This document shows, piece by piece, positions 918 through 45,487 of a DNA stretch of 64,000 bases (the stretch's first letter is position 1; each line of letters starts with the position of its first letter). Under the pieces are notes generated by a model that saw nothing but the letters and a program-made list of their open reading frames with translations, did no database searches and was not told the DNA's origin. The position numbers were made by a program, and so were the translations under genes. The stretch is from the NCBI RefSeq assembly GCF_000708675.1, contig NZ_JELR01000001.1, positions 1,488,001-1,552,000 on the forward strand. Reading direction: 5' to 3'. This DNA comes from Microbulbifer sp. HZ11 (GTDB lineage: Bacteria > Pseudomonadota > Gammaproteobacteria > Pseudomonadales > Cellvibrionaceae).

Positions 918-963
918 TTTAACCTTCGGGGCAACCGATTAGTAGGCCCCGAGGCGGCCCTGC

Positions 964-1061
964 TGTCGGGATTCGTTTCCGGGACACGCTACAAGCACAT
1001 CCATGTGCGCTCGGACACGGCCATCCATGGCCGCGTACGGTCCCGGAAACGAATCCCGACA
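964..1061 (-). repeat. Long palindromic element A (three-way hairpin family)
   Basis: Outer arms at 964-985 and 1040-1061 are perfect 22-bp reverse complements. The 54-base interior holds two further perfect small hairpins, GCACAT-CC-ATGTGC and CGGCCAT-CC-ATGGCCG. Read on the minus strand, both apical parts show CATGGATG, which aligns with the CAGGGATGGG core of elements B and C. The predicted fold is a closing stem plus two inner hairpins. Confidence 0.85.
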
Positions 1062-1142
1062 TCAGCGCCTTAGCTTTTGACAACTGTGATTTTCGACCTG
1101 TTCAGGGGCGAAAATACTGGGAACTCGGGGTTAAGGCGCCGA

Positions 1143-1238
1143 TACCGATAGCCCTTTGTGAGACCTTCCGCGAGAGGGACCTCGCGGAAGAGCCCCCAGG
1201 GATGGGTTCACGGCGTGTCTCACAAAGGGCTATCGGTA
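1143..1238 (+). repeat. Long palindromic element B (three-way hairpin family)
   Basis: Perfect 22-bp outer arms lie at 1143-1164 and 1217-1238. Inside are a 10-bp perfect hairpin (CTTCCGCGAG / CTCGCGGAAG) and then the conserved core CCCAGGGATGGGTTCACGGCGT split across two lines of sequence (about 1195-1216). The arm sequence is unrelated to that of elements A and C, so the shared part is the architecture and the core, not the stem. Confidence 0.85.
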
Positions 1239-1433
1239 GCGGGGCCGCCACACCACCACCTACGAAGCACCACAGCCCACTACGAAGTACCGAATTCCCG
1301 AAGCGACCTCAAACCTTCATACTCCCCTGTTATAAGCCACCGGACCGGTTAGAACCCATTCGTCACAAACCGGCCTTTCCCATATTGGCGAAATGGGTAT
1401 AACCTACAGACTGAACCATCAGACAAAAGGTGC

Positions 1434-8909: not shown

Positions 8910-11537
<2,628 letters not shown>

Positions 11538-11549
11538 ATAGCCCGGATT

Positions 11550-11628
11550 GGTGGATGCGCTCCGCTTATCCACCCTACAAATTAAGGCCGCACCTCGACG
11601 TAGGGTGGATAAGCGCAGCGCATCCACC
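11550..11628. repeat. R1 palindromic repeat, copy 1 (GTGGATGCGC...TATCCACCCTAC family)
   Basis: Arms at 11550-11578 and 11600-11628 are 29 bp each with one mismatch, around a 21-base centre. The same arm occurs at 43740-43820 and 45407-45482, and as a single arm at 54025-54053. It begins 12 bases after the leuS stop. Confidence 0.85.
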
Positions 11629-11660
11629 ATTGCTCACGAAGTACAATGATCAGACGCGAA

Positions 11661-11771
11661 GGACGGGTGCCGGGTACAGGTTTTCAGGAGCGTCGCAAAC
11701 GGGATGTTTGCGTCGCAGCGCCCAGGGATGGGTCTACCGCGGTCCTGAAAACCTGTACCCGGTGCCCGTCC
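11661..11771 (+). repeat. Long palindromic element C (three-way hairpin family)
   Basis: Outer arms at 11661-11689 and 11743-11771 pair over 29 positions. The only two non-Watson-Crick positions are G-U compatible in RNA. The interior holds a first hairpin (GCGTCGCAAAC / GTTTGCGTCGC with one mismatch) and then the core CCCAGGGATGGGTCTACCGC, whose first 13 bases are identical to element B. It is located between leuS and lptE, 29 bases before the lptE start. Confidence 0.85.
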
Positions 11772-32145: not shown

Positions 32146-33132
32146 TCACAACCCACTTCCTAAAACCTCCCCCCTTGCCGCTTCAAACAGGCGACTCAAT
32201 TCGGCGCTCCCCCTCACCTTCTCCTTTATCCGCCGCACCGCCTGACTCACCGCACTGTAATGCACACCACCAAACACTGCGCCAATCTCTGGCAGCGTCA
32301 TCCCCGCCAGATCCTGACAAAGCCACATCGCCACCGCCCGCGCCGGATTTGCGCCAGAGCGCCCAGGCGCCGAGCGCTTATAAAGGTCGTCAGCCTGCCG
32401 CTCAAAGACCGTTGCAACAGCCTCCACAATCGTCACATGCCCAACCGAAGTGCCGCCGTCACCGGCCACGCCGTTCACCTCGGGCGGTATCTCACCAAGC
32501 CGCGAGCGCATTTCTGCCTGAAACGCCTCACCACCAAGAAACGGCGACTGCCGCTGACGCTCGTAAAACGCCGCCACTTCCTCATCCACACCCTGCTCCA
32601 CAAACTGCCGGTAGCCCTGGTACTTGTCCCGACGGCCCAACGCCGCGTAGGTAAAATCCCGATACAGCCAGTCTGGCGATTTGCAAAGATTGAGGAATGC
32701 GGGATAACTGGACCAGCGATACGCCTCCAATGAATCCACCAACGGCTGCCTGGTCTCAATCGGGTTGCGGTGGATATACCGGGTTAGTGGCAAGTGGTAA
32801 CTATCGGCCTCCACCAAAATTGCCTTGTAGCGACCGCGAAACAGCGGGCCATCCCGCCCCTGCAGCCGATTAAAGCGCTGAGTATAAACACCATTGATAT
32901 GGCGCATCGCGCGGCTCAGATTGCCGAGAGGTGTGTGAATAAGAAGATGGTAGTGGTTGCCCATCAAACAATAGGCGTGCACCTGAACCTGAAACCGCTG
33001 ATGGGCTTCAGCAAGCGTATTGAGAAATGCGGAATAGCAATCCGCATTGAGAAAAATTTTCTGCCGGGCCAAGCCACGATTCATCACGTGGTACCAGGCT
33101 CCGGGGTATTCCAGTCGTAAAGGTCTGCTCAT
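32146..33132 (-). mobile_element. RAYT: REP-associated tyrosine transposase (Y1/HUH)
   Basis: The 328-residue protein is a Y1-type HUH transposase. The HUH metal site is MGNHYHLLIHT (residues 58-68), and the catalytic tyrosine lies in LTRYIHRNPIE. The N-terminal MSRPLRLEYPGAWYHVMNRG is the RAYT signature. The C-terminal ~90 residues (AVAMWLCQDLAGMTLPEIGAVFGGVHYSAV) resemble the DNA-binding domain IV of DnaA, as seen in long RAYTs. Such proteins process REP hairpins and are usually single-copy, domesticated genes. The start codon sits in the loop of an 11-bp palindrome (33106-33155). The frame is intact. Confidence 0.92.
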
Positions 33133-33155
33133 GTAAGGAGAGTAGACTGGAATAC
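33106..33155. promoter_or_regulatory. Palindrome enclosing the RAYT start codon
   Basis: GTATTCCAGTC at 33106-33116 and GACTGGAATAC at 33145-33155 are perfect 11-bp arms with a 28-base loop that includes the RAYT ATG (33130-33132). An identical palindrome encloses the start of the truncated copy (33294-33343). It could be a transposase recognition hairpin or a translational control hairpin. Confidence 0.55.
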
Positions 33156-33176
33156 TGTTATGTCAAGATTTGACCC

Positions 33177-33320
33177 CTAAACCACTAAACTCAGCCCAGA
33201 CAGTGTATTGAGAAACGCGGAATAGCAACCCGCATTGATAAAAGTTTTCTGCCGGGCCAGGCCACGGTTCATCACGTGGTACCAGGCTCCGGGGTATTCC
33301 AGTCGTAAAGGTCTGCTCAT
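33177..33320 (-). pseudogene. Truncated second RAYT copy (5' end only)
   Basis: The 166-bp segment 33205-33370 is a near-copy (roughly 94% by eye) of 33017-33182, the 5' end and leader of the intact RAYT gene. It retains MSRPLRLEYPGAWYHVMNRG and reads about 39 RAYT residues before diverging and stopping at 33177. Many of the differences are synonymous, so it comes from a diverged paralogue rather than a recent duplication. Confidence 0.85.
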
Positions 33321-33390
33321 GTAAGGAGACAAGACTGGAATACTGTTGTGTCAAGATTTGACCCCTAAACTTTCCTTTGACCCCTAAACT

Positions 33391-43730: not shown

Positions 43731-43739
43731 GAGTAGATT

Positions 43740-43820
43740 GGTGGATGCGCTTCGCTTATCCACCCTACGGGTTCGGTAGTACGAGTTTTGTAGGGTGGAT
43801 AAGCCGAAGGCGCATCCACC
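43740..43820. repeat. R1 palindromic repeat, copy 2
   Basis: GGTGGATGCGCTTCGCTTATCCACCCTAC-type arm at 43740-43768 (landmarks GTGGATGCGC and TATCCACCCTAC) is opposed by the arm at 43790-43820. The centre is 21 bases of unrelated sequence. It lies between gabD and der. Confidence 0.85.
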
Positions 43821-43909
43821 ATTGAATTCCCGGCAAGTTTAGTCTTGCGCGGAATTCTTTGCCCTCACCTTACGGGTATTGCGGCGCCCCGGCGCCACTT
43901 CAACCGAAT

Positions 43910-45379: not shown

Positions 45380-45406
45380 ATTGTTTAAAACCGGTGTGGT
45401 TTTGTT

Positions 45407-45482
45407 GGTGGATGCGCCTTCGGCTTATCCCCCCTACGGTACAGTGCATTGCCGTAGGGTAGATAAGCGCAGCGCATCCACC
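45407..45482. repeat. R1 palindromic repeat, copy 3
   Basis: A variant arm (GTGGATGCGCCTTCGGCTT, then ATCCCCCCTAC) at 45407 onwards is opposed by GTAGGGTAGATAAGCGC with AGCGCATCCACC ending at 45482. It lies just after the bamB stop. Confidence 0.8.
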
Positions 45483-45487
45483 ATTGA

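Follow-up and report, generated by a model that had tools for sequence, protein, structure and literature searches.

Palindromic intergenic repeats with twin GGA hairpin loops in Microbulbifer and other Gammaproteobacteria as putative two-site docks for CsrA

Three large stem-loops in the window (the whole stretch of 64,000 nucleotides of Microbulbifer sp. HZ11 DNA analysed here) are members of a dispersed, high-copy repeat family. Judging from sequence comparison, we hold with about even confidence that these are mobile palindromic intergenic repeats, which we call twin-GGA palindromes, and that their RNA is a putative two-site dock for CsrA. The GGA-bearing strand is predicted to form a long stem with near-perfect pairing, topped by two hairpins whose GGA loops lie 23-24 nt apart, a layout that would give a CsrA (RsmA) dimer what it needs to grip one RNA by both of its sites. 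The selected molecule would be this RNA strand and its ligand would be CsrA, which copies could dock on the transcripts around them or jointly titrate; the long stem may block 3′ exonucleases or be cut by RNase III. A DNA process (template switching or arm recombination) probably keeps the arms complementary and would also flip the core, and copies would be spread by a mobiliser. We prefer this twin-GGA dock as the simplest reading because it covers the GGA spacing, the strand-biased wobble, the location, the copy number, the inversion and the conserved orthologues.

Table 1. Twin-GGA elements of the window and their parts (window positions unless prefixed C1)
Feature	Position	Strand	Description
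Element A, subtype III	956-1069	(-)	30-bp arms 956-985 and 1040-1069 around two GGA hairpins
Element A, covariance-model match	C1:1488954-1489071	minus	98.3 bits
A hairpin 1 loop region CATGGATG	1022-1029	(-)	5′ hairpin when the minus strand is read
A hairpin 2 loop region CATGGATG	998-1005	(-)	GGA-to-GGA distance from hairpin 1 is 24 nt
A/B spacer, between the (-)(+) pair	1070-1134		26/74 columns equal to relative G041
Element B, subtype I	1135-1246	(+)	30-bp arms 1135-1164 and 1217-1246
Element B, covariance-model match	C1:1489133-1489248	plus	120.5 bits
B hairpin 1 CTTCCGCGAGAGGGACCTCGCGGAAG	1165-1190	(+)	Loop carries GGA
B hairpin 2 CCCAGGGATGGG	1195-1206	(+)	GGA 23 nt past hairpin-1 GGA
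Element C, subtype II	11661-11771	(+)	29-bp arms 11661-11689 and 11743-11771
Element C, covariance-model match	C1:1499658-1499774	plus	96 bits
C hairpin 2 loop region CAGGGATG	11723-11730	(+)	Hairpin 1 GCAAACGGGATGTTTGC directly 5′, its GGA 24 nt upstream

Read in its own orientation, each of elements A, B and C follows a common plan: a 29-30 bp outer stem leads into hairpin 1, which has a GGA loop; then come a short linker, hairpin 2, also with a GGA loop, and the returning arm (Table 1). The arms of 30, 30 and 29 bp contain 28, 28 and 27 Watson-Crick pairs, respectively, and the predicted fold energies of −73.6, −81.9 and −82.5 kcal/mol (z −8.9, −11.1 and −8.6) were matched by 0 of 200 shuffles in each case. 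The fold comparisons and arm pairing bear out the proposal of the first-pass annotation that these are real stem-loops of shared architecture. Its stem length for C (29 bp) is correct, and the 22 bp given for both A and B fall short of the actual 30 bp. The different hairpin core that it assigned to A versus B and C proved mistaken, as A lies on the minus strand, where its hairpins are GGCCATGGATGGCC and GCACATGGATGTGC, and all three elements have two GGA-loop hairpins. Besides the strand of A, it had missed the match of both hairpins to the CsrA/RsmA consensus and the core inversion described below. No other inverted repeat with at least 20 uninterrupted pairs occurs in the window (exact-arm scan, loop ≤160 nt), and CANGGATG alone is not enriched there (11 matches versus 10.9 expected). 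By our reading of the ORFs, the gap that holds the A/B pair is presumably miaB-phoH; element C lies between an ORF at 8940-11537, presumably leuS, and a gene starting at an ATG at ~11801, presumably lptE. Another palindromic repeat, TGGTGGATGCGC..CTTATCC(A/C)CCCTAC..GTAGGGTGGATAAGC..GCGCATCCACCA, has three copies in the window (11549-11629, 43739-43821 and 45406-45483) and an internal GTAG resembling GTAG-tagged REPs. Its copy at 11549-11629 directly precedes element C, and a full copy is absent from the nine relatives read at that site.

Genome-wide, CCANGGATGG is enriched, with 161 matches in 4.2 Mb versus 23 for the reversed control. A covariance model yielded at least 142 matches in the same genome, a few of them weak or partial, and this number is a lower bound because only 150 of 1774 candidates were scored. 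From 60 regions around CCANGGATGG places, 53 elements were extracted using a stem script that weights G.T and A.C mismatches equally; 48 of these entered alignment A1, and five with odd core lengths were left out. RNAalifold predicted 36 pairs for the 48 copies, with both sides changed in 33, and 95.5% of cells pair under the predicted structure. Two-sided changes amounted to 446 cells versus 122.9 in shuffled alignments, a number reached in 0 of 500 shuffles and compared with 55-98 for slid structures; because the shuffles ignore relatedness, they serve as a guide and not as a probability. Covariation of the family's stems is very strong. Sequence halfway along the outer stem is random: one pair, for instance, is CG in 14 copies, UA in 13, AU in 11 and GC in 10, and five adjacent pairs in this region are broken in 0 of 48. 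Three subtypes were recognised, exemplified by B (I), C (II) and A (III). Arms measure 29-31 bp in 93 of 124 own elements, and the outer stems are near-perfect and differ in sequence between copies.

Our search was partly circular because loci were picked by the GGATGG motif. A position-chosen 333 kb of relative G021 contained 16 inverted repeats (at least 20 Watson-Crick pairs, loop ≤130 nt), of which 10 pass the strict two-motif rule, three are element variants by eye and three are something else. The result that the first-pass annotation had named as supporting its proposal, further copies in the genome and in relatives with covarying stems and the GGATG core, was obtained. Its suggestion of a terminator was not upheld: a T-run is absent as a rule, since none of 124 own copies and just 2 of 122 from other genera have TTTTT within 12 nt past the 3′ arm, and one element is itself located in the loop of a distinct intrinsic terminator. 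A known Rfam RNA was also ruled out for the window and three loci, since Rfam 15 gave 0 matches at the gathering threshold in the window, and the three loci, with six elements, gave 18 matches at E ≤5, all below threshold and 13 of them miRNA hairpins. Some copies depart from the common plan. The element at L013:450-570 has a third GGA hairpin, the three following one another at 23-nt steps, and interchangeable modules are seen in which CACGGCGT gives way to ~20 nt like CCGGGGGGCGCCTAGCTCGT, with GAGC pairing kept, or hairpin 1 carries an insert like GGCCGAAGGCGCCGTGAAT..GGCC (loci L012, L019, L022, L039, L044, L046, L070; L037, L048, L051, L133, L241).

The paired GGA loops provide the main clue regarding possible function. 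Of 124 own elements, 111 have two or more A(n)GGA motifs in the core, and in 104 of these the motifs are spaced 23-24 nt apart. Among 124 copies from other genera, selected for having two motifs, the GGA-GGA distance is 23 or 24 nt in 117. In a less biased test, named genomes were searched for hairpin 2 plus tail only, and seven Microbulbifer loci were excluded from the other-genera counts. This afforded, among the matches listed, at least 83 hairpin-2 pattern matches, 66 with an outer stem and 17 without. Of the 66 stemmed copies, 64 have GGA in the hairpin-1 apical loop, against a chance expectation of ~0.16, and the count is 71 of 73 when the Microbulbifer loci are included (both among the matches listed). 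Loop 2 is as a rule CANGGAYG, where N is any base, and some loops of the family are UACAGGGAUGUA; a frequent hairpin-1 version in subtype I, GAGAGGGACCTC, lacks CA before GGA. The base preceding GGA may be G, T, A or C, and this variable first loop base rules out a GNRA tetraloop retained for stability. Caps from other genera approximate CGTCGGCnGCAnGGATGCnGCCGTCGAGCGTACAGGGATGTATTCACAGCGT; the arms there measure 26-33 bp in 50 of the 66 stemmed copies, with outer stems that pair almost perfectly and are often unrelated among the copies of a single genome. The first-pass description of outer stems that "differ completely" is too strong inside the genus, where most aligned copies fit a loose stem consensus with a fully variable middle. 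The conserved part of the element is the cap, not the stem.

According to the accessible parts of PMC7652899, the CsrA SELEX consensus is RUACARGGAUGU with GGA in a hairpin loop, and one CsrA dimer bridges two sites 10-63 nt apart, best above 18. RsmN and RsmA bind ANGGA motifs in loops (PMC3791407, likewise in part). Both the element loops and their 23-24-nt spacing agree with the SELEX consensus and the 10-63 nt bridging range, and the genome encodes one CsrA of canonical sequence with Arg44 present. The elements have what a Csr/Rsm-like mode of action calls for, namely at least two ANGGA loops at a spacing that a CsrA dimer can bridge. No element matched the Csr/Rsm models of Rfam in the window and three loci.

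Mismatches in the arms bear on which strand folds. Mutation alone should produce G.T and A.C mismatches about equally, and an excess of G.U therefore indicates a preference for folding of the GGA strand, whether as RNA or single-stranded DNA. In other genera, 57 distinct arms together contain 33 G.U versus 5 A.C in the inner 20 bp (binomial p 4e-6) and 37 versus 4 in the remainder. The corresponding values for the inner 20 bp in the own genome are 16 versus 9 (p 0.23, not significant), with 1:3 in antisense copies; its whole arms have 111 versus 12, mainly at inherited consensus wobble positions. Taken at face value, a strand bias of G.T 54 versus A.C 2 was overstated, and the bias is clear only in other genera. 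There, whole arms have G.U:A.C of 23:1 in sense copies and 19:4 in antisense copies. Because antisense copies also carry the bias, the selected RNA need not be a host transcript, and the G.U excess in both orientations points to the element's own strand rather than host mRNA.

Simple gene calls placed 74 own elements in co-directional gaps (29 sense and 21 antisense), convergent gaps (18), divergent gaps (2) or inside a called ORF (4). The 124 other-genera copies comprise 21 sense, 24 antisense, 26 convergent and 7 divergent cases, 22 inside an ORF, where some gene calls are doubtful, and 24 at an edge or far from genes. Background gaps at nearly the same loci number 56 ++, 82 --, 55 convergent and 49 divergent. 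Elements follow genes, avoid promoter-only (divergent) gaps and have no orientation preference. A role of the sense strand in 3′ UTRs had been expected and was dropped, as sense copies are about as frequent as antisense; this near-equality (29/21 own, 21/24 other genera) is also not expected if docking of CsrA on host mRNA is what keeps copies. Close pairs, A/B among them, are mostly (-)(+): 15 of 18 in the own genome and 13 of 21 in other genera. Of 116 own left flanks, 17 have the motif TACGAAG at −28/−27 relative to the start of the element, and 9 of 114 own right flanks have it at +10 to +14 (loci with the motif include L022, L039, L045, L098 and L108). It is mirrored within pair spacers and occurs in 0 of 124 other-genera copies within the 60 nt upstream.

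The prevalence of (-)(+) pairs, the absence of orientation bias and a G.U excess that is independent of gene orientation are also what purely selfish miniature mobile DNA (REPIN/MITE-like) would be expected to display. The folded strand would then be recognised by a transposase or nuclease, the likeness to CsrA sites would be coincidental and the location would reflect host tolerance. We regard this main rival as possible, if on the unlikely side. The distribution of the family speaks for it, in that copy number is high and patchy, from at least 142 here to between 0 and at least 96 elsewhere in the genus. Eight of 24 same-genus relatives have 0, 1, 1, 2, 2, 2, 6 and 11 copies, and the others range up to that maximum. 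Close relatives gave matches at E 0.001 in 27 of 38 genomes and the class sample at E ≤1e-4 in 37 of 219, the own genome included in both; 8 of the 36 other class-sample genomes with matches have at least 16 each. All 16 matching genomes in a phylum sample of 200 belong to the same class or nearer. Among the matches listed, pattern matches occur in Microbulbifer, Stenotrophomonas, Xanthomonas, Marinobacter, Cellvibrio, Haliea, Alcanivorax, Pseudomonas, Alteromonas and a Methylococcaceae bin. Six same-orientation matches with a period of ~227 bp form a tandem array in a different family of the order (G447:C1:94411-95665). At two Xanthomonas loci (L332, L344), GCACAGGGATGTGC and GTCAGACAGGATGTCTGAC hairpins occur in an inverted repeat that looks related but is laid out differently; it may be a second twin-GGA family. 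Cargo of plasmids or phages was dropped as an origin, since blastn with element B as sole query at E 1e-5 gave no match in 72,556 plasmid and 50,697 phage records.

Presence and absence between relatives likewise favour mobility. The G021 sites of 17 own elements are occupied in 12 cases, some by a different copy, not occupied in three and ambiguous in two; blocks shared with G041 cover nine own elements, with two sites occupied, six not and one ambiguous. At L229 (L229:4400-4860, own C1:1720400-1720860), the loop of an intrinsic terminator harbours a copy together with ~40 bp to its left and right; in G021 this terminator is intact and has no insert. Near-identical burst copies (L229, L010, L013 and L019) have flanks like AATGCTGTTCACTTAA..TTAAGTGAACAGCATT that form a second shell. 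End motifs within the genus are GCGAAGG..CCGCCAC, and arms vary per copy. No arm remnants were seen by eye at the empty sites inspected, few of which are clean, and copying of the arms from flanking DNA was rejected on this ground. One own-only site looks like a loss because G021 keeps the end CACCGCCAC.

Other observations sit less well with selfish DNA. No target-site duplication was found at the compared sites, where junctions are too diverged for clean duplications, and neither a mobiliser nor an autonomous relative was found. Within 1.5 kb of the 24 Y1 transposase loci in nine genomes, the usual criteria identify no element; L398 and L410 have weak candidates (arms of 11-13 bp, a single motif), and a few loci have core-like motifs without a stem. 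Mobilisation by a RAYT or TIRYT enzyme thus gains no support from the Y1 loci. The window itself encodes a Y1 (RAYT-like) transposase at 32146-33132 on the minus strand (PF01797, E 3.9e-12), adjoined at 33106-33343 by inverted GTATTCCAGTC..GACTGGAATAC repeats, with no twin-GGA element beside it.

Some orthologous copies are strongly conserved while their flanks diverge, which is odd for an inert insertion. Compared with G041, A is identical at 110/114 positions and B at 111/112, giving 221/226 for both, versus 26/74 for the spacer and 143/200 for miaB third codon positions; the closer relative G021 matches the pair at 224/226. Both A and B are kept in only two of eight relatives with elements in the miaB-phoH gap, the other six having other copies or just one, with identities of 0.25-0.82. 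In the leuS-lptE gap, a subtype II element or its remains, in C's orientation, is present in nine readable relatives (L164 and L166 among them look decayed, and L161 is cut by a contig end) and absent from 19 more distant genomes of the genus. Identity of this element to the own copy is 65-95% versus 19-47% for the rest of the gap, a figure lowered because the own gap holds an extra repeat. Six comparisons between relatives gave 68-93% for the element versus 41-64% for the gap and 65-76% for third codon positions. The copy at L227 is identical to that of G041 at 110/111 positions, with flanks at 102/126. The copies at these three sites follow the pattern that host-level constraint would give, and the pattern is not general: 12 copies shared with G021 average 0.80, versus 0.74 for non-coding flanks, because several copies were replaced and one inverted.

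At L225, one copy was swapped for another between near-identical flanks (left 48 nt identical). Inversion was observed relative to G021 at own C1:1588692-1588805 (L221:4693-4806), where the 52-nt core agrees at 51/52 positions when reverse-complemented and at 6/52 directly. The arms are nearly the same and the flanks are identical at 79/80 (left) and 72/80 (right) positions. L221 thus has both core orientations at one locus in near-identical DNA; it is one event between two species, not proof of switching. Long perfect arms would be a natural substrate for core flips, and frequent flipping would explain the absent orientation bias. Double arm changes relative to G021 (24 two-sided and still paired versus 9 single changes to wobble or mismatch) were not relied on as a sign of arm-to-arm copying, because many stem from replaced copies. 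Overall, both interpretations offered by the first-pass annotation for stems that vary while structure is kept gain some support. Selection on the fold draws it from the G.U-biased mismatches and some conserved orthologous copies, and an element copying its own structure from the near-perfect arms, the one inverted core, the replaced copies and the presence/absence differences.

A second rival, which we consider improbable, is a 3′-end RNA barrier or RNase III processing site, in which the stem stabilises or separates mRNAs and the hairpins merely close the structure. Copies near gene ends and between co-directional genes, such as that in leuS-lptE, would suit this role, as would the orientation-independent placement, and element-less relatives often have a plain hairpin in the same gap (by eye). 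However, a barrier leaves unexplained the GGA in both loops with its variable preceding base, the 23-24 nt spacing and the G.U bias of the GGA strand. Independently transcribed Rsm-type small RNAs, with (-)(+) pairs fired by a shared central promoter and CsrA sequestered in trans, are highly improbable: the mirrored TACGAAG of own-genome (-)(+) pairs, its fixed position in 17 of 116 left flanks and the lack of an RsmZ match above cut-off (RF00166, the sole Rsm model run genome-wide, best 25.3 versus 44 bits, neither place holding an element) would fit, but most copies are unpaired, promoter and terminator are putative, TACGAAG is absent from most own copies and from 124 of 124 other-genera upstream regions, and the RsmZ result says little because 8 of 14 control genomes also fall below the cut-off.

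If the GGA loops of twin-GGA palindromes bind CsrA, there would be more than 100 unannotated two-site docks in this genome and more in other Gammaproteobacteria, a scale that would alter the modelling of CsrA availability. A bolder and improbable extension of the dock reading is that each element is a DNA-invertible RNA module, in which a flip of the 52-nt core would switch between a sense and an antisense putative CsrA dock. If this were true, more than 100 independently flipping CsrA docks per genome would provide dispersed, heritable rewiring or buffering of the Csr network across much of the Gammaproteobacteria. Regardless of CsrA, the family is a natural system for studying how long palindromes stay complementary while their sequence changes, with arm changes, core inversion and copy replacement all readable at orthologous sites.

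Comparison with known systems places the elements between regulatory RNAs and mobile repeats. Csr/Rsm RNAs are encoded by one to a few genes per genome. Like CsrB, RsmX/Y/Z and CsrA-bound leaders, the elements have ANGGA-loop hairpins, several per RNA, at a spacing that suits one CsrA dimer; unlike CsrB and RsmX/Y/Z, they occur as more than 100 dispersed copies in both orientations, are palindromic and invertible, and have a variable outer stem of 26-33 bp with nearly always two sites. REP/REPIN sequences tagged with GTAG or CGTC are, in the accessible parts of PMC3733652 and PMC3116915, intergenic, downstream of genes, high in copy number and palindromic, often in inverted pairs and with G.T pairs in their stems. 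The elements share the intergenic location, the position behind genes, copy number, palindromy, frequent inverted pairs and G.T in stems. In contrast, REP/REPIN stems measure 5-13 bp versus mostly 26-33 bp here, and the elements have a branched two-hairpin cap and were not found beside the Y1 transposases examined. By eye, there is no unpaired terminal tag; many genus copies contain GTAG within the 3′ arm, and in many other genera the cap begins with CGTC.

Other small repeats offer partial parallels. Correia elements (CREE/NEMIS) and MITEs such as ERIC are also small intergenic inverted repeats, which can bind RNase III and affect genes. Most Correia copies are conserved in position with a few differences, in the portion of PMC2649163 available; the inverted repeat of CREE is conserved, whereas here the arms vary per copy, the cap is conserved and no target duplication was found. 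The TIR repeats of TIRYT transposases in S. maltophilia are self-complementary families, often close together (PMC3733652, in part), and the elements resemble them in both respects. The distinction drawn here is by Y1 loci: by the usual criteria, 0 of 9 in two S. maltophilia genomes have an element, and one, L410, has a weak candidate. Chloroplast DNA undergoes hairpin-loop inversions of 5-50 bp between 11-24 bp arms (PMC12928735, in part). These are similar in that a short segment flips between inverted arms and differ in not being a dispersed repeat family, the flipped segment here being a 52-nt core inside a bacterial repeat. Within open-licence PMC literature, no description of the twin-GGA family was found, and the accessible parts of the Teredinibacter genome paper (PMC2699552), a stem-loop family survey (PMC2267715) and the GTAG/CGTC repeat (PMC3733652) and RAYT (PMC2817692) papers mention no such element. 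By analogy, the elements appear akin to REP/REPIN and Rsm RNAs in how they work, and in kind to small palindromic intergenic repeats. We set them apart as their own family because key REP/REPIN tests, including that of stem length, failed and the Rsm models tried gave no match, and twin-GGA palindromes look like an uncatalogued repeat family.
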